Translations under genes and position numbers: made by a program
Virus record (IMG/VR): IMGVR_UViG_3300012685_000007
Span: 1 to 46,502 of that record
Source: a virus
Direction: 5' to 3' (one strand)
Length of the DNA stretch: 46,502 nucleotides
Notes under the pieces: generated by a model
Seen by the model: the letters and a program-made list of their open reading frames with translations, nothing else
Database searches by the model: none
Told to the model about the DNA's origin: nothing
In this document: positions 883 through 46,068 of the stretch, piece after piece
Numbering within the stretch: position 1 is the stretch's first letter
Layout of the letters: each line of letters opens with the position of its first letter

Positions 883-1628
883 TATGACCCCGTGTCTTCT
901 TCATCGATTGGTGTTTCATCAGAATACGTAGTAGCCGAATCCAAAGAACCCGGGATATAATCCGGTACGATATGGCATCGACATGCCGGATGGCATGGCG
1001 GAGGTCCGTTAGGGAAGGATTCGGTGATTAGAATAGATCCGGTATTCTCGTTCTCGTCGCATACTGGGCAAACCCGAGAGTCTGCCACAGTGATAAACGA
1101 GACGGTAGCTACGCTAGCCCGTTGGTATACCGAGTACGCAGCAGCAGTAAACGATCGAGTGACCTCGGTCTGAGTGATAGCATAAGCCTTCTCAGCAGAA
1201 GAATCCCGGACGATCTGAACTAGCTCCGTGGCCGTGGCAGGCAGCGCCTGAGCTAAGAGTTTAGCGGTGCGTTTCGCTATAGACTGGGTGATTCCTCGCC
1301 ACACCGTCTTAGCTTTGGCTTTTAGTCCGGTGAGCGCTGAGTCAGTTTTAGAGATGTTGGATACTAGCTCCTGGGCTATCTCAGTGCCGAACGCGTAAGC
1401 GTCTGTGTAGAGTTGCTCTAGAGGCCCGGAATCCAGGTTCATAGACTGGGCTATGAGCCCGTGAATCTCTTCAGGAGTAGTTAGACCCCGGGAGAGAATC
1501 TCGTCAGCTAGTTCTGCTGGATTGTTAATCAACCCAGTCAAAGCCGTGCTGATACCCGGTAGAAATTGCTGAGTCAGCTGTTCGTGGCTTAGGAGGCGTC
1601 GAGCCTCCCACGTCTCGTGTGTTGGCAT
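882..1628 (-). CDS. MuF-like minor head protein
   Basis: A 248-aa protein placed between portal and protease, where Mu gpF/SPP1 gp7-like minor head proteins normally lie. The first half is helical. The second half has the typical run TQTEVTRSF followed by a zinc-site pair, CPVC near residue 190 and PCHPACRC near residue 212, which is the signature of the MuF domain. Family members sit inside the head near the portal and may be ejected with DNA. I choose ATG 1628; GTG 1631 is one codon upstream. The gene overlaps the portal gene by about 104 bases, unusually long for this genome. Its stop overlaps the protease ATG. No toxin domain is fused to the C-terminus, which ends in an acidic tail. Confidence 0.8.
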   Translation of the reverse strand: MPTHETWEARRLLSHEQLTQQFLPGISTALTGLINNPAELADEILSRGLTTPEEIHGLIAQSMNLDSGPLEQLYTDAYAFGTEIAQELVSNISKTDSALTGLKAKAKTVWRGITQSIAKRTAKLLAQALPATATELVQIVRDSSAEKAYAITQTEVTRSFTAAAYSVYQRASVATVSFITVADSRVCPVCDENENTGSILITESFPNGPPPCHPACRCHIVPDYIPGSLDSATTYSDETPIDEEDTGS

Positions 1629-3408
1629 CACCTTTGAGGATCTCCGCCGATTCGGCGGGAGTGTGGTGGTGCCAGATAAACGGACGAGCGTTGCCTTTAC
1701 GAATATAGTTACGATAAGCAGTTAGCTCCGACTTCTTAACATCGGCAGTAGGCTTATCACTTGTTTTCTCGTTAGGTTTAGGTTCATCGGTGGTAGTCGG
1801 GGCGCTGGGCGGACCGACCTGAACACCGGGTGTAGCAGCAGCGGCAGAAGCCGCATTCTCGATAAACACCACGCCACCACGAGTAACAACCATAGGCATA
1901 TCAGCCTCGGGGAACGTGAACCGGGGAAGACCGATACGATCCCGATCCTCGTTTAGAGTCATACGTCCACCACTCACACGCGCAGCGGCTACTAGATCCG
2001 CTTCGTGCTCATCCTCGGATTCCATACCAAGGAACTGGAGCGTAAGCTCCGCAGGCATACCAAGGTACTCACGAGAAATAGAATTGACCAGGTCGACTAG
2101 CCACGCAAGCGTAGGACGAAGAGATTTACGATACGTAACATCTTCTTCGCCTTGCGAGAATCCCGCCCCACCGAGTCCTTTAGATGGGGTGAAACCAATC
2201 TCAGAGGGCTGAGTAGCCATGTGCGCACACAACAGTTTGACAAGGAATTCGTCGTAGTCGGGCTTGTACCGCTCAGAAGCATCCGAAGTAACAACCGGAT
2301 CCATACCGCCTGGGAGAAGCTTGTAACGGTGGCGGTTAGAAGTATCGCCAGCCATATAATCGTTGAGTACTACTTCCCACGCACGAGTCTGCTCCGGGGT
2401 CATAGCCCCCATAGCAGTATCCATTTTGAGGAACGTGGTAGGCAACGTACCCGAAGTGTATTCTTGCCTCATCCAATCCTGGCGACGAAGATAAACATCG
2501 GCCGAGACCAGCGCTTGTTCGACTTCTGGGAATCCAAACGGAGATTGAGTGCGTCGAGTGTACGGCTTGTAAATAAGGCTTCCGGCTCCGCCTTCCCAGT
2601 TATCAGAGGCGCCATTATCAGTGTATTCACCACGAGGAAAACCATACAGCCACTGCTGATAAGCGGGGGCGGGGGGAGCAGGACGATTGCCGTATTCGTC
2701 GATAAGCGGTTTGATAGTAGAGCCATCGACAATCTCTAAGCTAGCGAGCTGCCCGCCATACGTCATACGCGGGTAAATACTCAGTGCGTCGAGTACAAAT
2801 CGCTCTTCGAGCAACATACCCAACCACTCAGACCATGACAGGTCGTTAGTAGTGTCCGGGTTAGACCAGAAGTTTTTGAGCGCAGCGAACTGGTCCGAAT
2901 ACTTATCCCGCATCTCTTTCTTAGACGTGGGGGAAGTAATCCCTAGTTGCTGCTCAGCGTCGGCAGTGAAGCCGAAACCCCACTCAAGTTGGCATAGTTC
3001 GTCTTTACGCGTGCGCAGGCACAAGCGGATAATATCGACTTTATCCGCTGCTTCTCGTAGCGTAGTCCATGGGACAGGGCGATCGTTAGCCAACAGGTTA
3101 TATGAAACAGGATACTCGTACTGGCGGGGGTCAGCTTGATTGGTAACCGGGTTAGGAGTGTTCAGCGGAGCAGGGTACAGCGGGGCACCAGGCCCAAACA
3201 ACGACCAGAAGCCTTGAGAGCGGTCGAGAGGGACAGCCCCTGATACAGCACCCTGGGTACGACCCTGAATCATCCCTAGCATGCTCGTAGCGTCTGTAAC
3301 CGTACTCCCTGCCGGGAGAGCCAAACCACCAGGCATAGAAGTAGGGCCACGATAGGCTTTGGATACAGGAGAGCCTGCTACACGAGGGCGACGAATACCA
3401 CGAGACAT
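1525..3408 (-). CDS. Portal protein
   Basis: A 627-aa protein immediately downstream of the large terminase (stop to start gap of 1 base, GGGGG ribosome site). The body (about residues 95-480) has phage portal features: a YNLLANDRPVPW segment, long helices with RTRKDELCQLEW, and a PTTFLKMD region. It forms the dodecameric ring through which DNA enters and leaves the head. Residues about 500-560 are a Pro/Thr/Lys-rich linker. The last 70 residues contain a basic YRNYIRKG and FIWHHHTPAE segment, as in several actinophage portals. Length is long compared with the common 450-500 aa because of the extended tails. Family assignment is by order and overall pattern, not by a single catalytic motif. 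Confidence 0.85.
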   Translation of the reverse strand: MSRGIRRPRVAGSPVSKAYRGPTSMPGGLALPAGSTVTDATSMLGMIQGRTQGAVSGAVPLDRSQGFWSLFGPGAPLYPAPLNTPNPVTNQADPRQYEYPVSYNLLANDRPVPWTTLREAADKVDIIRLCLRTRKDELCQLEWGFGFTADAEQQLGITSPTSKKEMRDKYSDQFAALKNFWSNPDTTNDLSWSEWLGMLLEERFVLDALSIYPRMTYGGQLASLEIVDGSTIKPLIDEYGNRPAPPAPAYQQWLYGFPRGEYTDNGASDNWEGGAGSLIYKPYTRRTQSPFGFPEVEQALVSADVYLRRQDWMRQEYTSGTLPTTFLKMDTAMGAMTPEQTRAWEVVLNDYMAGDTSNRHRYKLLPGGMDPVVTSDASERYKPDYDEFLVKLLCAHMATQPSEIGFTPSKGLGGAGFSQGEEDVTYRKSLRPTLAWLVDLVNSISREYLGMPAELTLQFLGMESEDEHEADLVAAARVSGGRMTLNEDRDRIGLPRFTFPEADMPMVVTRGGVVFIENAASAAAATPGVQVGPPSAPTTTDEPKPNEKTSDKPTADVKKSELTAYRNYIRKGNARPFIWHHHTPAESAEILKGDANTRDVGGSTPPKPRTADSAISTGYQHGFDWVD

Positions 3409-3409
3409 T

Positions 3410-4717
3410 CTAACCCCCTGTCTTAGTAGACATCAGTGAATCCAAGAATCCAGCAGCAAACGAAGGCTGAGCAAGATGAAGCAACGCGTACACCAAAGCA
3501 TCCATACGGTCTGGCGATTCGACTTCTTCAGGAGTCCACATACACAACTGATCCTCCAAGTTGTCGAATGAACCTACATGGTGTACTTTGTGCTGTTCGT
3601 ACAATGCTGATACTGGCTCAGCACGAACCCGCTTGCCTTTTTTAGCGTGGATCATTTTAATAGGCAGGTTAGGAGCGAGTTGACGGAGCAAAGCGGTAAG
3701 AGCTTCTCCACCTTGGTTGGTCTCAATAACTACTTCGTTAGCGCTGAAGTCGTCAAATGCGCCCACGGTACGAGCAGCCCAGTCAAGAGGCGTAGTTCTG
3801 ACAGATCGATCTGATAAGACATAGTATTGCCCGTCAATTCCCTGACCAGCCACGATGATACCGGTTTCATCTGCATCTTCACCAGAAGTGACAGCAGGAT
3901 CAACCGCAACAACAATTCGTTGCATTTCAGGAGCACGCTGAACGCGATCTGAATCAAGCCATTCACGCTGCCAGAGTGCGCCGGGGATATCGTCGAGTAT
4001 CTCGGCGAATAGTTCTTGACGACCAAGCCTGGTGCCTTCATACCTCTCCTTCAGCGAAGCAAGCGTAGAAGCAGCGAGGTTGGCAGCGTTGTCGTATGTG
4101 CTACCCCGAGTAACATGCACATCTTCTCGCTTGAGAAGCTCCCGGACAATTTTCACAGGAAGCGGAGTAGTCGTGGCGATAACCTTTGGCTGAACACCGA
4201 GGCGGAGACCAAACATCAACTGATCCCACGCGTCTGGTGCGTTTTTCACTACCTGGGCTAGTTCGTCTACCCACGCTCGGTGATGCTGAGGACCACGGAG
4301 ACGTGCGGGTGATTCAGCAGAGAACAGCTTGACCTGGGCTTTGTTAGGGAGGGTAATCTGACCAAGAGTCTTATTCCACTTGAGTCCGGTTTCCTCGGTG
4401 AGCCCGTACCGCTCTAGTACAGCGAGCAGCCCTGATTCACCTTCTACGCAGGTGTCACGAGCGTCAGCGAAGGTAGGCGCCAGGATCGCGCAGCGGTGGC
4501 CTGGGTTGGATACGAGGTAGTCAGCGAGGTCCTCAGCCCCGGTGCGTGTCTTGCCAAACCCTCGACCAGCGAGGATGAGCCATACGTTCCAGTCGCCTTC
4601 GGGGGTGTGTTGCTCGGTACGGCCTTGCTCACGCCAGAACTTCTGGCCGTTGGCTACCGGGTCACCGTGCGTGACCTGGTGTTCTAGGAGTTCGGTGAAG
4701 ATCGACAAAGCATCCAT
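3410..4717 (-). CDS. terL: Large terminase subunit (packaging ATPase and nuclease)
   Basis: A 435-aa TerL. The N-terminal ATPase has a Walker A GRGFGKT near residue 52 and a Walker B ending in WVDE near residue 150. The RNase H-fold nuclease begins with the acidic strand VVAVDPAV near residue 270 and continues with VIETNQGG near 335 and an MDALVYAL segment near 415. It cuts concatemeric DNA and drives it through the portal. Length is usual for actinophage TerL. The start ATG at 4717 lies only 1 base from the -35 box of a plus-strand promoter (4719), so its own promoter must lie within or beyond the inserted plus-strand cassette. The presumed small subunit (5508-6098) is separated from it by that cassette. 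Confidence 0.95.
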   Translation of the reverse strand: MDALSIFTELLEHQVTHGDPVANGQKFWREQGRTEQHTPEGDWNVWLILAGRGFGKTRTGAEDLADYLVSNPGHRCAILAPTFADARDTCVEGESGLLAVLERYGLTEETGLKWNKTLGQITLPNKAQVKLFSAESPARLRGPQHHRAWVDELAQVVKNAPDAWDQLMFGLRLGVQPKVIATTTPLPVKIVRELLKREDVHVTRGSTYDNAANLAASTLASLKERYEGTRLGRQELFAEILDDIPGALWQREWLDSDRVQRAPEMQRIVVAVDPAVTSGEDADETGIIVAGQGIDGQYYVLSDRSVRTTPLDWAARTVGAFDDFSANEVVIETNQGGEALTALLRQLAPNLPIKMIHAKKGKRVRAEPVSALYEQHKVHHVGSFDNLEDQLCMWTPEEVESPDRMDALVYALLHLAQPSFAAGFLDSLMSTKTGG

Positions 4718-5509: not shown

Positions 5510-6098
5510 ATGAAGCGATAGCAGGCAAGAGCTTCAGGTGGTTGACAGCAGCAAGCTTAGCTACCTGTTGCATTTCGATGCTCATACCTACAGCCCTGAG
5601 AGCAGCGTCTAGCGCTGCCATCATCATACGAGCATGAGCTTCTGCAATCTCGACCTGGCGCTTAGCAAGACCAGCAGCAACAGCCTTGACAGCGAGGTCC
5701 CCACAGAACTTCCGCTCGGTCATCTCAAGCGCTACGAGACCCTTGACGTACTCGCCTTGCACGCCAAACTCTCCCCACACTTTGCCAATAACAGCTTCTC
5801 GTAAAGTATCGGATTTGCTAACAAGCTGTTCAAGCTCTAGCGCATACATCTCAGCACGGCTAGCAGACTGTGAGAGCAATCGTAGCAGCATCTCACCCGG
5901 GTCTACGGTAGAGTCACCCAAGCCCCATTTAGCAATCTCAGCGCGCACAGCAGCAGTAGCGCGGACCTGTGGGGCTCCGCCCCCGTGCTTACGGCAGACG
6001 GTAGCGCCGTTGATAGGCCAGTTACCACACCGTTCCCCCGCACGATCACCGAGTCGGGTGATGCCGATACACTTTTCTTTGGGAGTAGGCGACTTCAT
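5508..6098 (-). CDS. Probable small terminase subunit with N-terminal zinc finger
   Basis: A 196-aa protein. The N-terminus carries a C-x12-C-x10-C-x2-HGGG pattern (Cys10, Cys23, Cys34, then KHGGG) seen in actinophage proteins annotated as TerS or as hypothetical neighbours of TerL. The rest is helical with coiled-coil tendency (residues 70-180), as expected for an oligomerising DNA-recognition subunit. TerS recognises the packaging site and loads TerL. The link to TerL is by position on the same strand, with the plus-strand cassette in between. I see no clear helix-turn-helix, so the function is inferred. Confidence 0.6.
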   Translation of the reverse strand: MKSPTPKEKCIGITRLGDRAGERCGNWPINGATVCRKHGGGAPQVRATAAVRAEIAKWGLGDSTVDPGEMLLRLLSQSASRAEMYALELEQLVSKSDTLREAVIGKVWGEFGVQGEYVKGLVALEMTERKFCGDLAVKAVAAGLAKRQVEIAEAHARMMMAALDAALRAVGMSIEMQQVAKLAAVNHLKLLPAIAS

Positions 6099-6587: not shown

Positions 6588-6635
6588 CGTTTTCCTCTCA
6601 GAGATACGGATCACCCCCTAGTTTGCTTCCCTCAG

Positions 6636-6707
6636 CAAGGGTGGAGGGATTTGAACCCCCGACATCTGGTTTTGGAGACCAGCGTTCTTCCGCTGAACTA
6701 CACCCTA
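6636..6707 (-). tRNA. tRNA-Trp (anticodon CCA)
   Basis: A 72-base cloverleaf on minus. The acceptor stem TAGGGTG pairs with CACCCTT (six pairs, U-U at position 1-72), followed by U8-A9, a GTTC/GAAC D stem, anticodon stem CTGGT/ACCAG around loop CTCCAAA (anticodon CCA), and T arm GGGGG-TTCAAAT-CCCTC. The 3' CCA is not encoded. It is the only tRNA seen. It lies between structural and small-protein genes of the leftward operon. Confidence 0.9.
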
Positions 6708-8871: not shown

Positions 8872-9414
8872 TTACTGCTGAGCAGTCACCTGCAAAGCGA
8901 TAGTCCCCACACTAACAGCCAAGGTTGCTTTGACTTCGATGTCCAGCCCAGTAGCTGTCTGAGTGCCCGAGACCACAGACCAGGTTACTGCGCCTACGAT
9001 CGTGGTAGAGCCTTGCGGGACCATAGCCACCGAGTACACAGCCGAGGGCATCGCAGTGTCCCAGGTGACTGTCAGGGTCTTCTTCTCGAACAACCCGAGA
9101 GCAGGGACCATCACAGTCTTGACCTGACGAGCTGGAATATACAAATCAGCTACGTTAGATGCCAAAGCGTAAAAGTCTCCGCTGGCGTTGATCGGCTGGT
9201 AAGTCGCTGCGAAAGCACTAGGCGAGATCACCTGCCCGGTGTGAGTCACCCAGTCCCCTTGGTTGATCACTACGAAGTTATACAAGCTCAGGGTGGTGTC
9301 GCCGTTGTCGGTGAGGCCGTTCCCGATATTCAGAAAGTTGTAGATCTCGGTGAAGTTGGATCCTGTCCACTGACGCAAGTCGATTGCGACTGGCCGGTTG
9401 ATATACAATCCCAC
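8872..9414 (-). CDS. Adhesin or fibre-like protein outside the tail module
   Basis: A 180-aa protein starting GTG 9414 with GGGGAG 7 bases upstream. Residues 1-75 have the RQWTGSN...INQGDWV...FAATYQPI pattern of a small domain found in many phage proteins. Residues 85-180 form a beta-rich module (VTWDTAMPS, VTWSVVSGTQTATGL) resembling lectin-like or tail-spike terminal domains. The same QWTGSN motif recurs in the fibre-region protein at 32907-33203. Attachment to virion or host surface is inferred; it lies more than 20 kb from the tail genes. Confidence 0.6.
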   Translation of the reverse strand: MGLYINRPVAIDLRQWTGSNFTEIYNFLNIGNGLTDNGDTTLSLYNFVVINQGDWVTHTGQVISPSAFAATYQPINASGDFYALASNVADLYIPARQVKTVMVPALGLFEKKTLTVTWDTAMPSAVYSVAMVPQGSTTIVGAVTWSVVSGTQTATGLDIEVKATLAVSVGTIALQVTAQQ

Positions 9415-9449
9415 TTAACTACTCCCCAGTAGTTTACTGTTCAGTTGTG

Positions 9450-9600
9450 CCCGGCTGATGCCGGTTCTAGGAGCGGTACCAGGGGAGCCGAACGTCACGA
9501 CCGCCGCAAGGCGGGGTGCGCGAGCAAGCGGAAGCTTGCTCCGATCCCTCGGTGGAGAGGATCACCGATTCGTATCCAGCTCTACCCTGGTACCGGCTGA
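9450..9600 (+). ncRNA. Candidate structured RNA with three hairpins inside a long helix
   Basis: An 11-bp perfect helix (9474-9484 with 9585-9595) continues after a 2-base bulge with 4 bp (9485-9488 with 9579-9582). Inside it are three hairpins: CCGCC-GCAA-GGCGG (9501-9514), an 8-bp stem capped by GGAA (9522-9541), and a stem 9543-9562 with one bulge. A small hairpin, 9451-9464, precedes it. Both GCAA and GGAA are GNRA tetraloops only when read on plus, so plus is the likely RNA strand although both flanking genes are minus. No reading frame explains the pairing. No known RNA class recognised. Confidence 0.6.
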
Positions 9601-9782
9601 GTGGGTAGCCTGGCTACGCCAAACCGCGCTAGCCACGAAAACTACCCCCTACTCTAGTAGGGTGATCGTGACAAAAACACTGTGACCAGCAATGATTACT
9701 CTCGGGTGATGCTTGGTCACCCGGGGCGGAATGTTCTTCTCACCGTACCTCAACTGATCCTTGCACCGATCCCCACCTGGTG
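9601..9782. other. Gene-free interval with further inverted repeats
   Basis: No gene supported. Inverted repeats include CCCTAC/GTAGGG around TCTA near 9646-9661, GTGACCA/TGGTCAC near 9682-9719, and CGGGTGA/TCACCCG near 9703-9723. They may extend the adjacent RNA or act on the end of the regulator transcript. None is followed by a convincing U run. Confidence 0.5.
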
Positions 9783-10085
9783 TTATAACTTATAGTTGAA
9801 CTTCAGTAACAGATCTAGTAGAAGAGCTTCGATCCTCTCAAGCCTGTCTTCTACAGACTCCGAGACGGAGTCTCGATACTGGAGATCGGATGGTTTGACC
9901 TGCAAATATGCACACAATCGATCTAACGTAGCACCGAGAAACGGTGCGCAGTGTCCTGCCTCCATAGCTTGCAACGAATCAATCTTGATCTTAGTCTTTG
10001 CAGACAACTGAGCAAAGCTCAAGCTCAGATTCTCCCTAGCGACTTTCAGTCGCTCTCCATCAAAATTCTCCAACGTTTGACTCAT
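9783..10085 (-). CDS. XRE/Cro-type HTH transcription regulator
   Basis: A 100-aa protein. Residues about 10-68 form a Cro/C1-type helix-turn-helix (RLKVARENLSLSFAQLSAKT then a recognition helix near SLQAMEAG). Residues 75-97 are a Leu-rich helix likely to dimerise (VEDRLERIEALLLDLLL). It is the first gene of the leftward arm and faces the rightward early arm across a repeat-rich intergenic region, so it probably controls the divergent promoters there. No integrase is present, so I do not call it an immunity repressor. Confidence 0.75.
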   Translation of the reverse strand: MSQTLENFDGERLKVARENLSLSFAQLSAKTKIKIDSLQAMEAGHCAPFLGATLDRLCAYLQVKPSDLQYRDSVSESVEDRLERIEALLLDLLLKFNYKL

Positions 10086-10393
10086 GATTATTAATCTTCT
10101 CTCTTAAGCTGTCTTTTGGATACTTCGTATCCTTCTGAGATGAGTAAGAGTTGTAGTTGTTTTATTATTAATAACACGCGTACGCGTGTACGTGTGCGCA
10201 CGACCCCTTGTCAGTAGACTATCAGAACCTGTTGTATGCTTCTGAACAAGCTTCTGAGCTGGCACTTCGTGCCTCTGATAGAATCTGGTATGTAGTGAAA
10301 CGCTAGCTACTCGGTGAGAAATTCCCAGGCGGAGGAAACATCACCCGTTTGGGGGATACGAAGCGAGCTTCTCGACGTGGTAGAGTGCTCGGC
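10086..10393. promoter_or_regulatory. Divergent control region between leftward and rightward arms
   Basis: About 300 bases without a gene. Visible elements are a hairpin GGATAC-TTC-GTATCC (10118-10132); AT-rich DNA (10161-10173); a 16-bp palindrome ACACGCGTACGCGTGT (10174-10189) inside a 29-bp alternating purine-pyrimidine run (10174-10202); GCTTCTGA twice, 12 bases apart (10238, 10250), with CTTCTGA again near 10132; and the inverted pair CTATCAGA/TCTGATAG (10219, 10274). A -10-like TAGAGT (10381) lies 7 bases before the first rightward ATG. These look like operator and promoter sites, possibly also an origin. Confidence 0.6.
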
Positions 10394-10612
10394 ATGGACA
10401 CCAACTGGATCGAGATCACGACCAATAAGTGTTGTGTGTGTAGCAACGCGACTACGCTCCGAGTTGAGCTGGATAGCTACCGATCGTGGCTGATCGATGG
10501 CGAAATGGTGCAGGATGCCTTCCCTGCGATGTCCGCAGAGGAGCGAGAGTTGCTGATCACTGGCACGCACCCCGAGTGCTGGGATTCGATGTTCGGAGAC
10601 GATGATGAGTAA
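10394..10612 (+). CDS. Conserved actinophage early protein (72 aa)
   Basis: ATG 10394 is chosen over an upstream TTG because TAGAGT lies 7 bases before it and no ribosome site exists. The pattern CCVC near residue 12, a SYRSWLIDGE segment, FPAMSAEERELL, and the ending TGTHPECWDSMF match a small family that recurs as an early gene in actinophages. The Cys/His residues may bind zinc. Function unknown. As first gene of the rightward arm it is probably expressed soon after infection. Confidence 0.7.
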   Translation: MDTNWIEITTNKCCVCSNATTLRVELDSYRSWLIDGEMVQDAFPAMSAEERELLITGTHPECWDSMFGDDDE

Positions 10613-11120: not shown

Positions 11121-11618
11121 ATGACAACAACCGAGCAGTACACCGGCTGGCTCTCTAGCGCAGGCATCATCCGCAACGGTGGCCTCAAAGCCCCTGGTCA
11201 GGAGCACCTTGCGGCTGTCACCGGGACTCACAAAGCCAAGCTTGGTCAGGTCAAGAAAGACACCTCGTTCACCTCGGCGATCCCTGCTCCGGTTCAGGCT
11301 CGTCAGGTCACGGAGAAGACCATCACCCGCGATCGCCCGCTTGGTCCGGGTTACTTCCAGTTCGGCGAGACTGTGGCCAAGGTCCAGATCTCCAAGTCAT
11401 CGGGTCGTCCATACGCGAAGGTTCTGGATCTGGTCAGTGGCTCGTTCGAGTACGCTCCGGGTGTTATGACCAGGCTATTCGAGTCCGACCGGCTCACGAT
11501 CGAGGTAGCGGCCAAGATGGGGCGTCAGACCGGGCGGTGCATGATCTGCGCACGTGAGCTGACTAACACAGACTCAATCGAGCGTGGTATCGGTCCGATC
11601 TGCGCTGGCAAGCTTTAG
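11121..11618 (+). CDS. DUF6011 domain protein
   Basis: A 165-aa protein. The last 30 residues carry the DUF6011 signature: GRCMICARELT followed by SIERGIGPICAGKL, with Cys pairs likely to bind zinc. The central region (FGETVAKVQISKSSGRPYAKV) is strand-rich. DUF6011 occurs in actinobacterial phages, often at the end of DNA-associated proteins; its function is unknown. Start ATG 11121 lies 6 bases from a -10-like box with no ribosome site. The stop codon TAG is also the first three bases of the 48-base double-hairpin element. Confidence 0.8.
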   Translation: MTTTEQYTGWLSSAGIIRNGGLKAPGQEHLAAVTGTHKAKLGQVKKDTSFTSAIPAPVQARQVTEKTITRDRPLGPGYFQFGETVAKVQISKSSGRPYAKVLDLVSGSFEYAPGVMTRLFESDRLTIEVAAKMGRQTGRCMICARELTNTDSIERGIGPICAGKL

Positions 11619-11663
11619 ACCGACCGTAAGGTCGGGCGTCTGTCAGCTTTGCTGACAGCCTAG
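11616..11663 (+). repeat. Double-hairpin repeat element, copy A
   Basis: A 48-base element beginning at the TAG stop of the preceding gene and ending CCTAG. Hairpin 1 is CCGACC-GTAA-GGTCGG (11620-11635, GNRA loop). Hairpin 2 is CTGTCAGC-TTT-GCTGACAG (11640-11658). Copy B at 29155-29201 is the same except for one missing loop base. No U run follows, so it is not an ordinary terminator. Confidence 0.85.
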
Positions 11664-11683
11664 TCCGTTCGGGTGACCTGGGA

Positions 11684-22941: not shown

Positions 22942-23510
22942 CTGACTTCATGACTAGGGAGGTGGAACACAAGCCACGCCCGGGTGGAACCCCCAATGGA
23001 ACCGTGGCTATTTCAGAATCTGTGATAGGTATCGTGGTAGAATCCCGACTGGGATCGTTTGTTGTCCAAGTAGACAAAGATGACTATCCCCCGCTGTCAC
23101 CCTACCGGTGGTACGTTTATCAGAACGGGTATACCGAATACGCGAAGGCGGATTGCGTGGCAGACGGCCACAACAACTGTCGAGTGTATGCACACCGGTT
23201 AATTACCGGGTTTTCTGAAGTGGACCACGAAAACCATGACGGGCTGGATAATCGACGAGACAATCTTCGTCTTGCCAGCCGTTCGCAAAATATCGTGAAC
23301 TGTCGTGTGCGCAGCCGCAATACGTCGGGGTATACAGGTGTTAGCTGGGATAAGAGACATAGAAAGTGGGAAGCTTATTACAGCTCGAATAACAAAAAAG
23401 TGTCGCTAGGGCTGTTTTCAGAGATTCTAGACGCCGCTGAAGCGCGGTTTAAAGCGGTGACGAAAGAGTACGGGGAGTTTGCCCCTTCGGACGGAGTGCG
23501 AGATGACTGA
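22938..23510 (+). CDS. HNH homing endonuclease (with AP2-like C-terminus)
   Basis: A 190-aa free-standing HNH endonuclease. Core: VYAHRLITG, EVDHENHDGLDNRRDNLR, then ASRSQNIVNCR. The C-terminal NTSGYTGVSWDKRHRKWEA is an AP2/NUMOD-like DNA-binding segment. Such genes spread between phages by cutting gene-lacking relatives. Its first 12 codons mirror those of the next gene (MTDFMTREV against MTDMMTEEV), suggesting insertion that copied or captured the target start. ATGA overlap with the ligase gene. Confidence 0.85.
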   Translation: MTDFMTREVEHKPRPGGTPNGTVAISESVIGIVVESRLGSFVVQVDKDDYPPLSPYRWYVYQNGYTEYAKADCVADGHNNCRVYAHRLITGFSEVDHENHDGLDNRRDNLRLASRSQNIVNCRVRSRNTSGYTGVSWDKRHRKWEAYYSSNNKKVSLGLFSEILDAAEARFKAVTKEYGEFAPSDGVRDD

Positions 23511-24027
23511 CATGATGACCGAGGAGGTACGATTCGTGTGGTGGCTAGGTCCTAGTATCCGTTCCGCCGCTGAGGATGCGGTACTCAACTACCCGGGTGT
23601 TACTGACGCTGACACGCTCACAGCAGAGCTAACCCTGAGTATCCTGGACAAGAACCTAGCCGAGGAGATCGAAGCTCTCCCAGACCATCTCAGGCGCCGT
23701 AGGCTGGCTTCTACAGCGAAGAACCTGATCCTCACCGAGATTGCTGACTTCGAATACCGGACCGGGAACGTGATGTATTCGGTCAGCCAAGTCAAGTATT
23801 TGTTGGAATCGGGGCTGTTGACTGGCGGGCGTACGCGTATCGCTCCCGAGGGTTCAGACCTGGATCTAGGCTGTCAGTACCTTCAGCGTGTGCTCCCAGC
23901 CTACGCTCGTAGTATTGCTTCTAAATACGTATCCGGGGAGATACCGGGTGACCCCGGACTGTTAGCACGCGCTATCCATGCGTTGACTGACTGCGTCAAC
24001 AATCTCCATAAGAATAAGGTGGCTTAA
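23503..24027 (+). CDS. Hypothetical helical protein
   Basis: A 174-aa mostly helical protein in the replication block. ATG 23503 is the longest start; GTG 23536 with a perfect GAGGAGGT 7 bases upstream is a strong alternative and would give 163 aa. The sequence VLNYPGVTDADTL and a conserved-looking LRRRRLASTAKNLI have no family I recognise. The homing endonuclease immediately upstream carries a near copy of its start. Confidence 0.6.
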   Translation: MTDMMTEEVRFVWWLGPSIRSAAEDAVLNYPGVTDADTLTAELTLSILDKNLAEEIEALPDHLRRRRLASTAKNLILTEIADFEYRTGNVMYSVSQVKYLLESGLLTGGRTRIAPEGSDLDLGCQYLQRVLPAYARSIASKYVSGEIPGDPGLLARAIHALTDCVNNLHKNKVA

Positions 24028-24591: not shown

Positions 24592-24747
24592 ATGAGCATG
24601 ACACAGCGCGTAGTCGACGAGTTGCGAGAGCTAGCGGACAAGGTCGGTATCGAAGCAAACCAGGCCACCCGAACAGGACAAATGATCCGGCTAGAACGAT
24701 ACGCGAACCGCCTTCATGAACTTGCGGACGAATTGGGGGACGATTAA
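24592..24747 (+). CDS. Small helical protein (51 aa)
   Basis: ATG 24592 with GAGAGGAAA upstream. Product is a single long amphipathic helix pair (RVVDELRELADKVG, MIRLERYANRLHELADELG), likely coiled coil. The TAA overlaps the next ATG. Function unknown. Confidence 0.6.
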   Translation: MSMTQRVVDELRELADKVGIEANQATRTGQMIRLERYANRLHELADELGDD

Positions 24748-24899
24748 TGGACCGATACGAAATTAGCTCCGATTACTTTGGTGGACCCATGGTTTTGGAA
24801 GATCGACAAGCTGGATACGAATTGGTGATGATTCTATCGAGCGGTGTCACTGTGGCGGATATTCTCCGGGAGATCGAAGCTTATGAACAGAGTTGGTGA
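24747..24899 (+). CDS. Hypothetical protein (50 aa)
   Basis: Translationally coupled (TAATG) small acidic product with strand-helix order (YELVMILSSG, ADILREIEAYEQ). Nothing recognised. Confidence 0.5.
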   Translation: MDRYEISSDYFGGPMVLEDRQAGYELVMILSSGVTVADILREIEAYEQSW

Positions 24900-28981: not shown

Positions 28982-29157
28982 TTAAGTTTCTTGAATACGC
29001 TGGTATGGGCTTATGGTTTGGATTCAACTTGTTTCATTTCGGAGGTACTGTGTACCTAGCTGCCAAGACTCGTAAGAGTTTGTGGACCCTGGTTCAGTTG
29101 GCGGTCGTTTCTGTGTCTGTTACGGGGTGGGTTCTGGTAGCTCCGAGCGTCTTCTAG
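28978..29157 (+). CDS. Small membrane protein (59 aa, two spans)
   Basis: GTG 28978 overlaps the previous stop. Two hydrophobic segments, AGMGLWFGFNLFHFGGTVYL and LVQLAVVSVSVTGWVLVAP, around a basic loop (KTRKS). Its TAG stop is the first triplet of repeat copy B. No holin feature beyond topology; an early-region membrane role is possible. Confidence 0.55.
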   Translation: MIKFLEYAGMGLWFGFNLFHFGGTVYLAAKTRKSLWTLVQLAVVSVSVTGWVLVAPSVF

Positions 29158-29201
29158 ACCGACCGTAGGTCGGGCGTCTGTCAGCTTTGCTGACAGCCTA
29201 G
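29155..29201 (+). repeat. Double-hairpin repeat element, copy B
   Basis: A 47-base copy of the element at 11616-11663, differing by one base in the first loop (GTA against GTAA). It again starts at the TAG stop of the preceding gene and ends CCTAG. It is followed after 25 bases by a conventional terminator. Confidence 0.85.
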
Positions 29202-29226
29202 ACCATGACTGCTCACCCGTTTGGCG

Positions 29227-30825: not shown

Positions 30826-30867
30826 AAAAGCCCCCTCTCGCGTGAGCGAGAGGGGGTTCTGTATTTT
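30826..30867. terminator. Bidirectional terminator at convergence of the two arms
   Basis: An 11-bp perfect stem (CCCCCTCTCGC with GCGAGAGGGGG) around GTGA. AAAAAG lies on the left and TTCTGTATTTT on the right, so both strands see a hairpin followed by U-rich sequence. It separates the early arm (ends 30817) from the lysis end of the late arm (30874). Confidence 0.92.
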
Positions 30868-30873
30868 CCGGGA

Positions 30874-31059
30874 TTAAACTACAGGCTTGTCCTTGTTCTT
30901 CGGGCCGAGGAGCACAGCGAGCAGAGCAACCACTCCGCCGACTCCAGCGGCCACACCAGCCGGGAGATCCGGGAACAGCGTGTCTACACCACCAGCGGCG
31001 ACAACAGCACCCACAAGAGCGCTGAGAGCCTTCTTGAACCTAGCGAGATACGACACCAT
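30874..31059 (-). CDS. Holin-like small membrane protein
   Basis: A 61-aa protein: a short basic start (VSYLARFKKAL), a hydrophobic span (ALVGAVVAAGGVDTLFPDL region), a second span (GVAAGVGGVVALLAVLL) and a basic end (GPKNKDKPVV). Position directly after the endolysin (TAATG overlap) and topology fit an actinophage holin that times membrane permeabilisation. Last gene of the late operon. Confidence 0.75.
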   Translation of the reverse strand: MVSYLARFKKALSALVGAVVAAGGVDTLFPDLPAGVAAGVGGVVALLAVLLGPKNKDKPVV

Positions 31060-31877
31060 TAGCTAGCCAACCTTCGTTCGAATTCGTCAGCGACGGCTGC
31101 CGCCAGCGTGGGACCGACCAGGGCAGCCACCTTGGCCGCTAGGGCGTCCAGGTCGACTGTAGGCGTGCTCAGAGCGTCCAGCTTGGCCTTGAGAGCCGCA
31201 TCGTTGTTCAGCAGCGTGTTGAGCACGTTAGCCGCGTTGATCGAGGTGTTCGGCGCGTGTACTGGATCCAGGGTCAGAAGAGGGTCTCTCCAGACTTTGT
31301 ACACATCCTGATCTGTTAGTGCCACGTCATTTCCTTCCTGAGAAATCACAAGGTTTCGGTCGCACAAGATCCCGCCGACTGTAACCTGAGTATTATTGTC
31401 TTGCCAGTAATTCGCCGCTGGGCTCAGTGCGGATCGGGCTCCCGCTTGCCAAAAAGCAGAAGCGTGTCCTTGAGCAGTATCAATAGCGTTGCGGAAACCA
31501 TATGCACCGACTTGGTCTAAACCGAGTACAGACACAGCTCCATCGAGATAAGCTCGCCAGATTGTCGGATCGGGTACCGTAGTCCGGTCGTTAGTGAAAA
31601 AGATCCTCCCGTGATACCCGAGATAATCAGCACCAGCCTTAGCCCGCTGAGCGTAAGCCACCCCGCGTGCGTAGCCACCATCCGCGTCTGTGGTGTTTAC
31701 TTGCATCACCAAGCGTACGATCAAGCCTTGTGCGATATGGTCTTTGTATTCAGACAAACTAGTATGCTTGCTGCTTAGATTAAGAGGGGAGTCGATATAC
31801 CGAATTACCCCGTTATAGCCGTTTGCCCGGATCGTTGCTCCGGAGATTTTTCCGGCGGAATAGTCGAGGAAGTACAT
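31059..31877 (-). CDS. Endolysin with DUF1906 (glycoside hydrolase-like) domain
   Basis: A 272-aa protein. ATG 31877 is chosen over 31889 because GGAG lies 6 bases upstream. Residues 1-205 match DUF1906/Rv2525c-like: FLDYSAGKIS at the start, NGVIRYID, then DYLGYHGRIFFTND and GLDQVGAYGF, a TIM-barrel fold related to GH25 lysozymes found in actinobacterial cell-wall enzymes. Residues 210-272 form a Leu/Ala-rich helical tail (LDALAAKVAALVGPTLAAAV), perhaps for oligomerisation or membrane/wall association; no known wall-binding repeat is visible. The exact bond cleaved is not established for this family. Confidence 0.8.
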   Translation of the reverse strand: MYFLDYSAGKISGATIRANGYNGVIRYIDSPLNLSSKHTSLSEYKDHIAQGLIVRLVMQVNTTDADGGYARGVAYAQRAKAGADYLGYHGRIFFTNDRTTVPDPTIWRAYLDGAVSVLGLDQVGAYGFRNAIDTAQGHASAFWQAGARSALSPAANYWQDNNTQVTVGGILCDRNLVISQEGNDVALTDQDVYKVWRDPLLTLDPVHAPNTSINAANVLNTLLNNDAALKAKLDALSTPTVDLDALAAKVAALVGPTLAAAVADEFERRLAS

Positions 31878-32029
31878 TCGTCGCTCCATTCCTCTCTGAT
31901 TTTGTTAAGCCTGTCTAAAACAGGCTGCGAGATACGTTCTATACGAGTGATCTGTGAGTGAACAGTTTGAGCATCTTTCAAAGCACTGTTCGCCTCAGTG
32001 CATCCGGACTTTCTCTTTCGACCAAACAT
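31805..32029 (-). CDS. DUF7620-like small protein overlapping the endolysin start
   Basis: A 74-aa protein beginning MFGRKRKSGCTEANSALKDA, the usual start of DUF7620-type proteins placed near actinophage lysis genes. A helical middle (QITRIERISQPVLDRLNKI) and polar tail. It overlaps the endolysin by 73 bases in another frame. Function unknown; the position suggests a lysis accessory role. Confidence 0.65.
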   Translation of the reverse strand: MFGRKRKSGCTEANSALKDAQTVHSQITRIERISQPVLDRLNKIREEWSDECTSSTIPPEKSPEQRSGQTAITG

Positions 32030-36200: not shown

Positions 36201-36240
36201 AGTCAGCGATAAGACTCGTTAGCGGCCAGTTGCGAGACAT
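33217..36240 (-). CDS. Giant hub/minor tail protein with carbohydrate-binding and LamG-like domains
   Basis: A 1007-aa protein following the tape measure (TAATG overlap), where distal-tail and hub proteins lie. The N-terminus is strand-rich with a Pro/Gly motif (FTQGPPGFPGG). Two CBM4/9-like modules follow (about residues 75-230, LLSNSTFESGISPWTG; and 270-410, LTYDPSFETTVSGFFG). A LamG/concanavalin-like domain spans about 500-690 (AAFTMEFWFKM, LWHYAVLQLG). The last 250 residues (VLSALQEVANTEGGLLWVD, FDARDTRYLN, ERITVTRRT) resemble hub/Tal proteins. It probably merges distal tail, hub and adhesin roles. Confidence 0.75.
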   Translation of the reverse strand: MSRNWPLTSLIADFTQGPPGFPGGNAVSLLAGQTANRSISTTRGRQYELDQVQTGSLSANLTDQLEYLNPTNKGTFTNLLSNSTFESGISPWTGAGGTVSQSSTQKHSGTFSGKMIPNGSSSQDNFNSETLPVVGSNQVTVSAWVYFTNAVTNNFSLSVNFFDVTGAYITTLGAAVSVAAATWTQFTNTLTAPAAANTMAVVPVLSGTPAASQIWYLDDVSLINVTSTASPWNTGPNSLLPYRCVQYGAWWNPATKNIAGNLLNSTNYVPSSLTLTYDPSFETTVSGFFGLQGAPTITTSATQHFDGAKSMSVVFNTAGDLAVVPIYSSPNIQYTLSIYVFVAASHTVQVRWHNNPGGIGTTLATATSSTTGAWQRLTMTATPNTPITAIILTLASGTFASTVFFDAMQLEVGSSASAFTTSGPTYYPVYTGYIERYPQTWDSAGFRGIKPLECVDALSPLSRAVINQSYQQTVLADSPNVFIPYNDAALPQKVQLPLGGSPGTGTQLLGTNSGAVTFGGDSFLDGSNAVQLAQTNVNPPTSGNGNQVTWLSTYGYSTYLNPAAFTMEFWFKMIGSAGAGGAAVMQPGEVLGATSQTPQRAFGMYEYSPDTRMAWIWTDDTATIRINNTPLDANGNVIRPDGLWHYAVLQLGFPASVYSRRWSIDGSTLSSWGALFGAGNPPGQILNAFFVSASTYFGDIASNFSMANAGFYNGIQLSQTQINNHYQRGIGYFGELSGVRAARILNKYWSPNIITASGETQMSSDFHYDPIVSPGQQSSPMSVLSALQEVANTEGGLLWVDARGFINFDARDTRYLNAKTAQYVFGENAAGGELPYEEVDYDYDPTYVYSEADLTADSGVVYTSVNATSQTAYGQRILSQQMFMANDWDVQQAANFFTKRYAVPPGGNGSTAPLRINRLTINPGSNPNLWTAALSLDIGERITVTRRTAPGTIITGDYYIEQVSHSVDGSESSWTVSYQLSPVFNPVAWILGDSTYGVLGTTTVTVY

Positions 36241-39203
36241 TATGCACCCTTCACCGATAGTCCGTTCGAGGAATTACGTAGGTTATATCGGAGAGTTCCG
36301 GTTTGCAGCCATTGAGCTACATCTCGGGGGTTCATCTGAATAGTAACGTTGGCACCTGTATTAGCCGTGGTACGACCAGCAGCAGACAATAACGCCCCAC
36401 CGGACAATGATCCATTAATAGTCAGCGGCTTACGCGAAGCTTGACCGGCAGCACCGAGCACCGAATCCACCATGTTCTGAGCGGCTTTAGCAGCGTGGTG
36501 TGCATCCGAATCTAAGCCGTTGACAAGACCCTCAACAAGACCCTGTCCCATTGCGTGCGTATGGCGAGAGGGTGAGTTGATACCAAGAGCGGACATGATT
36601 CCGTCCAGCAGCCCCTTGGCCATGTCCCGTGCTTTCTGACCGAGCCACCCGACCATAGAGCTAATACCATTCCACAAGCCTCGCAGCAAATCAGCGCCAG
36701 CATTATACAACCAATTACCAGACCCGTTAAAGAACCCGGTAACAGACTTCCAGACACCCTTGAACCAGTCCCACACAGCTTTCGCAGCGTTGACGATACC
36801 GTCTTTCAGACCGTTGATAATCGACTTACCATGTTCGAGGAGCCAGTTACCGGCTGAGTTAAAGAATGCTTTGATACGCCCGGGCAGCGCGTTCAGCCAA
36901 GCCCAGACATCTTTAGCCATCGAAACGATACCGTTTTTAAACCCGGTGATAAGAGAGCTACCTTCAGAATTGAGCCAGTTTCCTGCCGAGGTGAAAAAGC
37001 TAGCCAGGTTCCCGGGCAAATCATGGAACCAGCGCGTTACATTATTCCACAGACTCTTGATACCATTCCAAAGTCCTGTAATAATGTCCTTGCCTTTTTG
37101 GAGAAGCCATGTACCAGCGTTGCCGAGAGCAGTGGCAATCTTAGCAGGCAGCCCGATAAACCACTGGATCACGTTGTGAACACCGTTACCGATAGCCCCG
37201 CCGAACTGGATAGCCCACTTGATCGCAGTGCCCAGGGCGAAGCCCAGGGAATACCCGATCATATACGGGAGATCCTTGAAGAACTTCAGAACATTGTCCC
37301 AGAGCTTTTTGAAGAATCCAGGGATGCTATTCCACGTAGAGATAATCCAGTTGATAATGCCGCTGAATGTGGACGTGATAAAATTGACAATATCCGAGAT
37401 ACGATCAGAAGTCCACTTCCAAACCGTGTTCCACAGATCCGCGAAAAAGTTAGAAACGTCAGTCCACCGATTTACGATCCAATCGATAACCGTAGTGAAC
37501 ACAGACACTAGGAAATTGACGATGTCAGTGACTCGGTCCGAGGTCCATTTCCAGACTGTGTTCCAAAGCCAAGCGAAGAAATCGCCTACTTCTTTCAGGT
37601 GGGTAATAAGCTCATAGAGCCCAAACACCAGCGCTGCAATAACCACGATAATCGCCGCCACGATCCAAACAACTGGGTTAGCAGCGAGTCCCCACAAAGC
37701 CACACCTACCGCTGCGATAGCGACGATAAGACCGGCTGTGAGTACGATAATCAAAGCAATCATCGCTGCTTTGTGGTCGCTGATCCAGGTGATAGACTCT
37801 ATAAACCATCCGGCGAGTTTGGTAAGAACCGGTAGAACAATCACACCGATCTTGATACCAAGGTTCTCAAGGCTGGCCACGAGATCGTGCATCTTGAAAG
37901 CGAAGGTGCTCGATGCGTCTTTCCAGTTCTGCTCGAACTTGGTAATAGACGAATCGTTACCAATAGCGTCGTACTTCTCTTTAAGTCCGTCTAGGTTCTG
38001 CATAAGCGACATGATCGCTTTATCAGACCTACCGCCACCAAAGATCTTGGACAGGGTAGAGTCCGCCTCAGTGCCCGAGACGCCCGCTGCTTCCAGCGCG
38101 GTCTTTAGGTGATTCAGCGCAACATACAAACCATCAGGCTGCTTAAGGTCTGCTGCTAGTTGGTTGTTGGTTACGCCTGCCTTTTTCAGTGCAGCTTCCA
38201 TCAGCGCACTAGAAGCGGTGACATCGCCAGAAGCTACGCCTAGGCCCTTAAGCAGACCAGCGGCTTGCTTAGAGGGGGTGGACATCATCACAAGACCCAT
38301 GGTCATACGCGTAGCGGCTACCTCGGCAGAGTTACCACGGTCGGTGAGATAGGCGAGTCCAGCACCCATAGACTGGATCGAGATGCCCATCTGCGCAGCA
38401 GTAGGAGTCCAGTTCTTGATAGATGCGTTGAAGTCCTGGAACCGCATATCGCCTTCACCAACGATAGCGTTAAGAAGAGCCATCGTAGGCTGAGCATCAG
38501 CTGCATTCTGGTTAAAAGCTTTCATCACCGATGACAAAGCGTACGTAGTGTCGTCGAGATTAGCCCCGGAGATAGCTGCCTCTTCGGCAGAATATCGAAC
38601 CACGTTCAAAGCAGTGGCCATATCCAGGCCAGCAGAAATAGGATGGTACAAAGCCTCAGCCATCTTAGTGCCAGACTGGCCGACATCATCCGCGATCTTG
38701 AGTACAACGTCGTAGCTATCGAGCACAGCTTGTTTAGGAGCACCAGCGGCTGTGTACAGCCGAGTCATCTGCTTCTCAAACTCAGAAGCTAGATGGACAG
38801 ACTCGCCGATAAGCAACCCGGAAACTACGCCGACACCTATCAGCCCTCTGCCGATAGCAGCAGCGGATACACCAGAAGTAGCAGCAGTGCCAGCCATAGC
38901 CACACCAACACGCTCAACAGAAGCCGCTGCTTTAGCGGACGCCGCTTCCATCTTAACAGCCATAGCAGCAGCATCAGCTGACATCTTGTCCATAGCCAAC
39001 GCAGTGTCAATAGCCGCTGTATCAGCAGCGGAAGCTACCTTGGCCATAGACAATGCAGCGGCATCGTTCTGAACAATAAGCGCTTCGAACGCTACACCAA
39101 TCTGCGCCATTTCCAGCTTGGCGGTAGTCATACCCGCTGCAAACTCGGTGGTGTTCGCGGTTAGTACAGCAACAACCGGGGGTAGAAATCCTCCATCGGA
39201 CAT
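36240..39203 (-). CDS. Tape measure protein
   Basis: A 987-aa protein. Residues 40-100 are Ala-rich helices; 130-470 carry the TMP core (EFEKQMTRLYTAAG, DVGQSGTKMAEALYHPISAG). Two transmembrane-like helices lie at 481-505 and 510-533. Residues 540-650 hold Trp repeats (NTVWKWTSDR twice), and 690-840 tandem units of the SAGNWL...G..II.G type. A late GINSPSRHTHAMGQGLVEGL precedes the C-terminus. At about 0.15 nm per residue such a protein would suggest a tail near 150 nm. It runs down the tail tube and helps DNA entry. Confidence 0.92.
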   Translation of the reverse strand: MSDGGFLPPVVAVLTANTTEFAAGMTTAKLEMAQIGVAFEALIVQNDAAALSMAKVASAADTAAIDTALAMDKMSADAAAMAVKMEAASAKAAASVERVGVAMAGTAATSGVSAAAIGRGLIGVGVVSGLLIGESVHLASEFEKQMTRLYTAAGAPKQAVLDSYDVVLKIADDVGQSGTKMAEALYHPISAGLDMATALNVVRYSAEEAAISGANLDDTTYALSSVMKAFNQNAADAQPTMALLNAIVGEGDMRFQDFNASIKNWTPTAAQMGISIQSMGAGLAYLTDRGNSAEVAATRMTMGLVMMSTPSKQAAGLLKGLGVASGDVTASSALMEAALKKAGVTNNQLAADLKQPDGLYVALNHLKTALEAAGVSGTEADSTLSKIFGGGRSDKAIMSLMQNLDGLKEKYDAIGNDSSITKFEQNWKDASSTFAFKMHDLVASLENLGIKIGVIVLPVLTKLAGWFIESITWISDHKAAMIALIIVLTAGLIVAIAAVGVALWGLAANPVVWIVAAIIVVIAALVFGLYELITHLKEVGDFFAWLWNTVWKWTSDRVTDIVNFLVSVFTTVIDWIVNRWTDVSNFFADLWNTVWKWTSDRISDIVNFITSTFSGIINWIISTWNSIPGFFKKLWDNVLKFFKDLPYMIGYSLGFALGTAIKWAIQFGGAIGNGVHNVIQWFIGLPAKIATALGNAGTWLLQKGKDIITGLWNGIKSLWNNVTRWFHDLPGNLASFFTSAGNWLNSEGSSLITGFKNGIVSMAKDVWAWLNALPGRIKAFFNSAGNWLLEHGKSIINGLKDGIVNAAKAVWDWFKGVWKSVTGFFNGSGNWLYNAGADLLRGLWNGISSMVGWLGQKARDMAKGLLDGIMSALGINSPSRHTHAMGQGLVEGLVNGLDSDAHHAAKAAQNMVDSVLGAAGQASRKPLTINGSLSGGALLSAAGRTTANTGANVTIQMNPRDVAQWLQTGTLRYNLRNSSNGLSVKGA

Positions 39204-44319: not shown

Positions 44320-46068
44320 CTAGCCAGCCTGGATACCGGTAATAGCACCCTGCCATGCCGGAGCGTGGCAGAAGAACGTGCCGAACCAGTACGTAGAGAA
44401 GTCGTAACTGAGCTGATTTACAGGCCAGCTGATACCCATGTAATCCTGAACGTTGCGGTATTCCCAGCAAGAGGGGACCTCAGAGTTCGGGAACGGGAGG
44501 GTATGAGTCAGAATCGACGCAGTGCCCTGGGGCCAGTACGGGTGGACTTCAAGGTCAACAACCTTGCCAGTCGCTTCGTTCTGGATAGCAGTGACAATCT
44601 GGCCGATCTGGTGGCCACCGGCGCCGTCCGCATCGATCGTGACACGGAAGCCGGTAGACGTCGAGCCCTTGAGCAGATCCGAGAGCTGGATACGGTCGTT
44701 AGCGTTAGTCAGAATCGCATCCGGGTTAGCCAGATTCTTAGCGTACATCGTCGCAAAAGCCTTCTGGAATTCGGTACCAGGGTTAGTGGTAGAGAACTTA
44801 CCAGCGATGTTCGTAGTGTAACCTGAGTTAGCGCCGAGCGTGACCGGGAGAATACCGTCGTAACCAATCGACTGAGCAGAAGTGTCAGCGGTCGGGGCGG
44901 TAGCACCAGACGACGGAATCGGACCAAGCACAGTGTAAGCAGGGGCGGTAACCGTGGTCGAGTTAGTGAAAGCACCCGCGTACGCGCCCGTAGCCGCCAC
45001 AAAGAACGAGGTAGCGTTAGTAGCAGCGGTAGCGGAAACGTACACCTGGTAGCCTACAGCGCCCGGGACAGCAGTCCACGCGACGTTGATAACACCGCCA
45101 GACGTGGTCGTCACAGCAGACGAGAACGTCGAAGCAGAGGTACCAAATCCGGAGACAGTGGCAACCGAAACGAACGTAGTCGTCGAGACACCCAGAGAGC
45201 CGCCACCAGCCGCCGGAGTAACAGCGACCGTAGCCGGAGCCGCAAGGACGCCCGAGTAGCCGTTACCAGCAGTACCGCGACCATAAACAGTCATACGCTC
45301 TTCCGCGAGGAACGAAGCGTACATCGTGCTAGTCTGAGAAAGCTGGCGAGCGTCCTGGAAACCCTGTCCAGCAAAGAACGCCGACCAAGTAACCTCGTCC
45401 GACAGACCAAACTGGAAGTACTTAGCCAGCTGATCCTGACCGGTGTAGCTGATCTTCGGGGGGCGGTTGTAGTACAGCGCGTTAGCAGAGCCAGAAACAT
45501 CAAAACGGTTCTGCGTGGTGTCCGCAACACCCGGGTGAATCAGCGGAAGACCGGTACCCGTCTGAGCGTTGGTAAATCCAGTGATCTGCTTATACTGGAA
45601 CGAGGTGCCGACACCCTGAGTACGCGGGAAACGATTGCGAAGCGGGGTATCAATCGGCACCAACTCTTCAGCAGGCGCCTTAAGGTCGGTCAGAACCAGG
45701 CCAGTGTTAACCGGCGAGGTGAGAGAGATATCCTTCTGGATATCCATAGTGCCCAGCGAGTTCTGAATAGAAGCCAGCTGATCAGCACCGAGTGCTTTGT
45801 TAATCGTGTCGTTTGCCAGAAGCGAACGAAGCTGAGCAGCGTGATCCTCGGTCTTCTCGACCTGGATCAGAGTCTGACCACTATCAGCCTTGGTCTGATT
45901 CGAGATTCGGAGATTACCCCGAACAGTCTGACCCGAGGAGTTAAATTCGCCCCACGGGGCGTCGGTCAGAGCCTGCTTATAGCGATCAAACCTCTGGGAC
46001 TTCTCGATAGGCGTTTCATCCGCCCCACCGAACAACGCGGTAGTCGCGTCGGCTTTCTTGCGAGCCAT
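44320..46068 (-). CDS. Major capsid protein (HK97 fold) with Ig/FN3-like insertion
   Basis: A 582-aa protein between protease-scaffold and connector genes. Residues 1-115 are helical and charged, like a delta domain to be cleaved. Residues 120-275 (RNRFPRTQGVGTSFQYK, STMYASFLAEERMTVYG) and 400-582 (PDAILTNANDRIQLSDLL, DFSTYWFGTFFCHAPAW) form the HK97 body. Residues about 279-385 are a Thr/Ala/Val-rich module with INVAWTAVPGAVGYQVYVS, typical of fibronectin III/Ig-like domains. The insertion would stand on the head surface. Assignment by order and pattern. Confidence 0.85.
   Translation of the reverse strand: MARKKADATTALFGGADETPIEKSQRFDRYKQALTDAPWGEFNSSGQTVRGNLRISNQTKADSGQTLIQVEKTEDHAAQLRSLLANDTINKALGADQLASIQNSLGTMDIQKDISLTSPVNTGLVLTDLKAPAEELVPIDTPLRNRFPRTQGVGTSFQYKQITGFTNAQTGTGLPLIHPGVADTTQNRFDVSGSANALYYNRPPKISYTGQDQLAKYFQFGLSDEVTWSAFFAGQGFQDARQLSQTSTMYASFLAEERMTVYGRGTAGNGYSGVLAAPATVAVTPAAGGGSLGVSTTTFVSVATVSGFGTSASTFSSAVTTTSGGVINVAWTAVPGAVGYQVYVSATAATNATSFFVAATGAYAGAFTNSTTVTAPAYTVLGPIPSSGATAPTADTSAQSIGYDGILPVTLGANSGYTTNIAGKFSTTNPGTEFQKAFATMYAKNLANPDAILTNANDRIQLSDLLKGSTSTGFRVTIDADGAGGHQIGQIVTAIQNEATGKVVDLEVHPYWPQGTASILTHTLPFPNSEVPSCWEYRNVQDYMGISWPVNQLSYDFSTYWFGTFFCHAPAWQGAITGIQAG

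Follow-up and report, generated by a model that had tools for sequence, protein, structure and literature searches.

A structured non-coding element at the early/late arm junction of an actinobacterial-type phage genome: a candidate phage RNA

Analysis of a 46,502-base phage record (the whole stretch of DNA analyzed, referred to below as the window) revealed a structured element that is real, non-random and unclassified. It is located in a non-coding gap at the point where the late and early gene arms meet. We tentatively propose that the plus strand of this element gives rise to a stable non-coding RNA of the phage, approximately 120-150 nt long, which is produced from the early/late arm junction during infection. 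The excess of folding, the long helix enclosing GNRA-capped hairpins, the non-coding location and the presence of a repressor-like neighboring gene were all established by computation.

Genome organization

An open reading frame (ORF) at 46203-46502 joined to 1-600 is open across both contig ends, and the record was therefore taken as circularly permuted, without a terminal repeat; the phage genome is complete or nearly so. The distinguished genes and regions are listed below.

9414 down to 1, then 46502 to 31059, minus: late genes
46203-46502 joined to 1-600, minus: ORF spanning the contig ends, prohead protease-like by eye
882-1631, minus: head protein
1525-3408, minus: portal
3410-4717, minus: TerL
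6635-6707, minus: tRNA-Trp within the late arm
GTG start at 9414, minus: first late gene
9415-9782, no strand: non-coding gap of 368 nt, defined from the ORF list, codon scores and gap list
9783-10085, minus: repressor-like helix-turn-helix (HTH) gene
10349 to ~30 kb, plus: early and replication genes (primase/helicase, exonuclease, DNA polymerase, endonuclease VII)
31059-31889, minus: lysin
36240-39203, minus: tape measure
44320-46068, minus: capsid-like protein, inferred from gene place

The phage is of the actinobacterial type. Its DNA polymerase is closest to enzymes of Mycobacterium abscessus prophages (43.9%). The late module is closest to two actinobacterial MAG contigs (TerL, 73%) and to IMG/VR contigs (capsid-like protein, up to 88% over 119 aa). 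For the first 25 kb of the genome, the phage collection contained no closely related DNA, and none of the 50 ORFs tested was recognized as an integrase. Within the replication arm, the ORF at 23479-24027 (plus) matches a PHROG family named sigma-K factor (E 1.4e-19). At the point where the arms converge (30831-30856) there is a perfect 11-bp hairpin, CCCCCTCTCGC-GTGA-GCGAGAGGGGG, which is likely a bidirectional terminator.

The gap at 9415-9782 separates the first late gene from the repressor-like HTH gene, both encoded on the minus strand, and contains the most stable 120-nt fold among all gaps of the genome. The initial annotation had described a gene-free stretch whose flanking genes are both opposite to the plus strand, and the gene layout agrees with this description. 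A single overlapping ORF was considered (9458-9685, plus, 75 aa). It lacks a visible ribosome-binding site, the related loci contain no relative, and its codon usage is of the non-coding kind (-0.05 bits per codon); a protein-coding reading was dropped on the basis of the codon usage. Neither a tRNA nor a tmRNA was found at the element, and there is no intrinsic terminator (a hairpin followed by a T run) at this site on either strand. The best upstream candidate for a plus-strand promoter (TCGATT-18-TACAAT, ~9404) is unconvincing, as its score is reached approximately 11 times in every 10 kb of each strand of the window. A plus-strand RNA would need a promoter of its own, the presumed early promoter region (10086-10348) being situated on the far side of the HTH gene. 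On the minus strand, the GGGGAG ribosome-binding site of the first late gene falls within a small hairpin (9412-9439), partly in its loop and partly in its stem, which possibly limits translation of this gene.

Predicted secondary structure

The following parts were distinguished within and next to the element, all on the plus strand.

9451-9464, plus: CCGGC-UGAU-GCCGG, a small hairpin separate from the element and immediately 5′ of it
9474-9484, plus: 5′ arm of the closing helix P1, CGGUACCAGGG, forming a perfect 11-bp helix with 9585-9595
9485-9488, plus: 5′ arm of the 4-bp bulged helix P1b, GAGC, pairing with 9579-9582
9501-9514, plus: hairpin H1, CCGCC-GCAA-GGCGG, 5 bp, with the GNRA loop GCAA at 9506-9509
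9522-9541, plus: hairpin H2, GAGCAAGC-GGAA-GCUUGCUC, 8 bp, with the GNRA loop GGAA at 9530-9533
9543-9563, plus: alternative third hairpin, GAUCCCUC-GGUG-GAG-A-GGAUC, present in the energy minimum
9550-9567, plus: hairpin H3, CGGUG-(8)-CACCG, the third hairpin of the initial annotation, present in the plus-strand centroid
9569-9577, plus: linker motif TTCGTATCC, between the hairpins and the 3′ arm of P1b
9579-9582, plus: 3′ arm of P1b, GCUC, with the UA bulge (9583-9584) on its 3′ side
9585-9595, plus: 3′ arm of P1, CCCUGGUACCG, pairing with 9474-9484

The computed minimum contains P1, P1b, H1 and H2. Three hairpins enclosed by the 11-bp helix and the bulged 4-bp helix had been reported originally. 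All of these parts exist at the positions given, but H3 is absent from the energy minimum, in which the overlapping and mutually exclusive hairpin at 9543-9563 is preferred. This predicted competition may reflect either a switch or an ambiguity of modelling.

Fold statistics

The predicted fold has an energy of -80.1 kcal/mol, compared with a mean of -59.8 kcal/mol for shuffled sequences (z -5.5; 0 of 200 shuffles as stable). Four segments containing the long helix gave z values of -4.2 to -6.0 on the plus strand and -5.1 to -7.0 on the minus strand (0 of 300 shuffles in each case), while the interior without this helix (9484-9585) reached only -3.1 on either strand. After correction for G+C content, the element ranks first on the minus strand and fourth on the plus strand among all 150-nt segments of the genome. 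A lone 11-bp inverted repeat is not rare (~2.5 expected in a shuffled window, one observed), and two GNRA hairpins never arose in 20,000 shuffles of the segment; the excess over chance is therefore placed in the combination of features. The earlier claim that chance pairing of such extent is unlikely thus stands for the energy and for the combined features, but does not extend to the 11-bp repeat taken alone.

We consider it quite unlikely that the element is a chance or relic structure without present function, e.g. the remains of a terminator or of a mobile element. Such an origin is suggested by the chance-level frequency of the 11-bp repeat in a window of this size, by the lack of demonstrable conservation and by the number of segments compared, since among roughly 1,850 overlapping segments from the two strands one must be the extreme. 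Set against this are the shuffling results, in which neither the energy (200-300 shuffles) nor the combined architecture (20,000 shuffles) was reproduced. Moreover, an idle sequence of 368 bp is rarely retained in phage genomes, which also argues against a relic.

Strand of the element

The GNRA loops are the sole strand-specific feature of the element and the sole support for the plus strand. The tetraloops of H1 and H2 had been noted as GNRA on the plus strand alone, and this was confirmed: their minus-strand counterparts are UUGC and UUCC, which are not favored loops. Among the 86 tetraloop hairpins found genome-wide, the loop is of the GNRA type in nine on the plus strand and in one on the minus strand. 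We estimate that two adjacent GNRA loops would favor the plus strand by a factor of a few tens. Over the region 9468-9600 the minus-strand fold is better by 2.8 kcal/mol (-73.0 vs -70.2 kcal/mol), owing to three G-U pairs. Across the window, the energy difference between the strands has a standard deviation of 8 kcal/mol and reaches 2.8 kcal/mol in 33% of the segments compared, so this difference was treated as noise and the choice of strand by fold energy was dropped. We lean tentatively towards the plus strand.

The minus strand would be the relevant one if the element formed the 5′ leader of the late (structural) operon, ending ~60 nt short of the first late gene, and controlled its elongation or translation, e.g. 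as an antitermination RNA resembling put or as a leader that binds a ligand or a protein. We regard this as somewhat unlikely, although several observations are in its favor. Both flanking genes are on the minus strand, and the fold of this strand equals or exceeds that of the plus strand (-134.8 kcal/mol and z -5.6 over 9405-9690, in addition to the values given above), and G-U pairs possible only on this strand extend the closing helix. Leaders of this type exist in phages, as exemplified by put of HK022 (PMC9378689), and the late transcript of phages L5 and D29 starts ~230 bp inside the left genome end (PMC5712189). However, the energetic advantage of the minus strand is within noise, its tetraloops are the non-favored ones, no good minus-strand promoter was found between 9600 and 9782, and the contigs with a shared late module lack the element.

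Linker motif and arm junction

The linker motif TTCGTATCC is present in four copies in the genome (9569-9577, 10124, 10354-10362 and 24813-24821), compared with 0.38 expected. Three of them (9569, 10124 and 10354) are clustered within less than 800 bp around the repressor-like gene. The copy at 10124 is included in a perfect dyad, GGATACTTCGTATCC (GGATAC-TTC-GTATCC, 10118-10132), situated 33 bp upstream of the start of the HTH gene, and the half-motif of this dyad recurs inside the element. The four copies may be regarded as a candidate operator or stoperator set. The recurrence of TTCGTATCC around the presumed control region of the HTH gene makes an operator half-site possible, and the motif may thus have this role rather than that of a pairing sequence.

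The linker region 9561-9581, which includes the copy of TTCGTATCC at 9569-9577, is complementary to a plus-strand site at 24809-24829 (21 contiguous pairs, including one G-U), placed within an early ORF of 50 aa (24747-24899). This complementarity is weak in the genome-wide search (E 0.15).

The inverted repeats could also act at the level of DNA, as protein-binding or cruciform sites of a cos/pac packaging site or of a replication origin at the arm junction. In linear L5-like genomes the ends lie at this junction (PMC5712189), and the cumulative GC skew of the analyzed genome is lowest at 9-10 kb. The equally good structure of both strands and the proximity of the perfect dyad, with its half-motif inside the element, would also fit such a role. 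Nevertheless, we find it improbable: the contig closes through the protease-like ORF, so no fixed end is seen at the junction, the GC skew follows gene orientation, and the AT-rich, dyad-bearing region 10086-10350 suits an origin better. Furthermore, GNRA loops would serve nothing in DNA.

Search for relatives

Screening of the whole window against Rfam 15 gave a single match at the gathering threshold, i.e. the tRNA, at 6636-6707; with E values of up to 5 allowed, the only addition was a weak minus-strand match to a CRISPR repeat (E 3.3). A DNA search of 50,697 phage records returned only short chance matches to the element. The covariance search proposed in the initial annotation was performed with a model built from the single sequence of the element (R1), which recovers its own segment at 175.9 bits and is of limited reach. 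With this reach, R1 detected no homologue: there was nothing significant in 81 related loci, no match in 395 Actinomycetes genomes, and only chance-level or in-gene matches in 12 phage records. The best match elsewhere, in phage phiGD24-3 (23693-23807; 20.3 bits, E 0.0056), was judged to be due to chance, because it lies inside a minor tail protein gene, its P1 pairs are mismatched and the stretch corresponding to H2 has 7 nt instead of 24 nt. Partial matches in two MAG genomes with related terminases (E 2.5-7.5) were also rejected.

The contigs that have the late module in common (L085, L086 and L109-L113) contain no R1 match. In L110, which was examined most closely, and in L085, the region upstream of the terminase genes is occupied by early-type genes on the same strand; there is no divergent arm junction, and these two contigs are therefore unable to test the element. 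No relatives were found for the genes near the element (8872-9414 and 10349-10612). Because R1 has a limited reach and close records of this genome may be absent from the collections searched, the missing relatives are no proof of uniqueness. A further late-module relative, L116, carries different, unrelated hairpins upstream of its terminase genes. The end of this contig (120-330, minus) is very strongly folded (z -7.5), with hairpins that nearly repeat one another, and a near-perfect stem of 17 bp (5780-5826) lies upstream of its small-terminase-like gene.

Comparison with known phage RNAs

In phages L5, D29 and StarStuff, the arm end is transcribed in the early direction into an abundant non-coding RNA (PMC5712189). 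The genome analyzed here is similarly organized, a tRNA gene in its late arm included, and its element is likewise placed in a non-coding late/early arm junction; if the plus reading is assumed, it also points into the early arm, so that by gene layout the location corresponds to that of the L5 and D29 RNAs. The L5 RNA differs in being a primary transcript of ~500 nt processed to 100-400 nt. D29 (AF022214) contains neither an R1 candidate nor an outstanding fold at the same place, and neither this model nor the DNA search of the phage collection revealed homology between the element and these RNAs.

The put RNA of HK022 has ~70 nt, forms two stem-loops and is located downstream of early promoters (PMC9378689). 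If the minus strand of the element were the functional one, both would be structured RNAs of phages located upstream of operons, but the element has 122 nt, is multi-branched and lies beside the late operon, and so does not correspond to put. The c4 antisense RNA (RF01695), reported from Proteobacteria and their phages (PMC2864571), resembles the element in being small and structured, in its proximity to an immunity-type gene and in a possible antisense pairing. In contrast to c4, the element has no Rfam match, and its pairing partner is distant, the pairing being only suggestive.

Proposed role of the element

The interpretation as a plus-strand small RNA is supported by the z value of the fold, the two GNRA hairpins on this strand, the non-coding position at the arm junction, the precedent of L5, D29 and StarStuff, and the 21-nt complementarity. 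It is opposed by the lack of a convincing plus-strand promoter or terminator, the minus orientation of the flanking genes, a minus-strand fold that is at least as good, the E value of the complementarity (0.15) and the lack of homologues by which conservation could be demonstrated. Under this interpretation, the element would be transcribed towards the early arm, and the closing helix and tetraloops would confer resistance to nucleases. The RNA could then act in trans, either through pairing of the linker (9561-9581) with the mRNA of the 50-aa early ORF or by binding a host protein; a regulatory or decoy function, as suggested in the initial annotation, is likewise putative.

It is unlikely that the element represents a new lineage-specific class of phage small RNAs, i.e. 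closed, multi-branched RNAs with two GNRA loops that would be expressed on the plus strand from the arm junction, act in trans on targets of the phage or host (e.g. by pairing through 9561-9581) and be controlled by the neighboring repressor-like protein. At present it is an orphan prediction, and it is a candidate for a known kind of RNA (structured phage RNAs encoded between genes) rather than a demonstrated new RNA class. The abundant arm-end RNAs of L5 and D29 are without known function. If the proposed interpretation is true, its occurrence at the corresponding position of an unrelated phage would suggest that arm-end RNAs are a recurrent and convergent feature, and a compact, strongly folded element would offer a small object for structural work.

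Other structured repeats

Two copies of a 51-bp element (96% identical) are present on the plus strand at 11616-11666 and 29155-29204, each directly 3′ of a stop codon. Homology between the arm-junction element and this two-hairpin repeat was rejected, as only scattered identities were seen. The hairpins of the repeat, CCGACC-GUAA-GGUCGG and CUGUCAG-CUUUG-CUGACAG, are not followed by a T run, and the repeat might represent a mobile RNA element or a tandem terminator of a U-less type.
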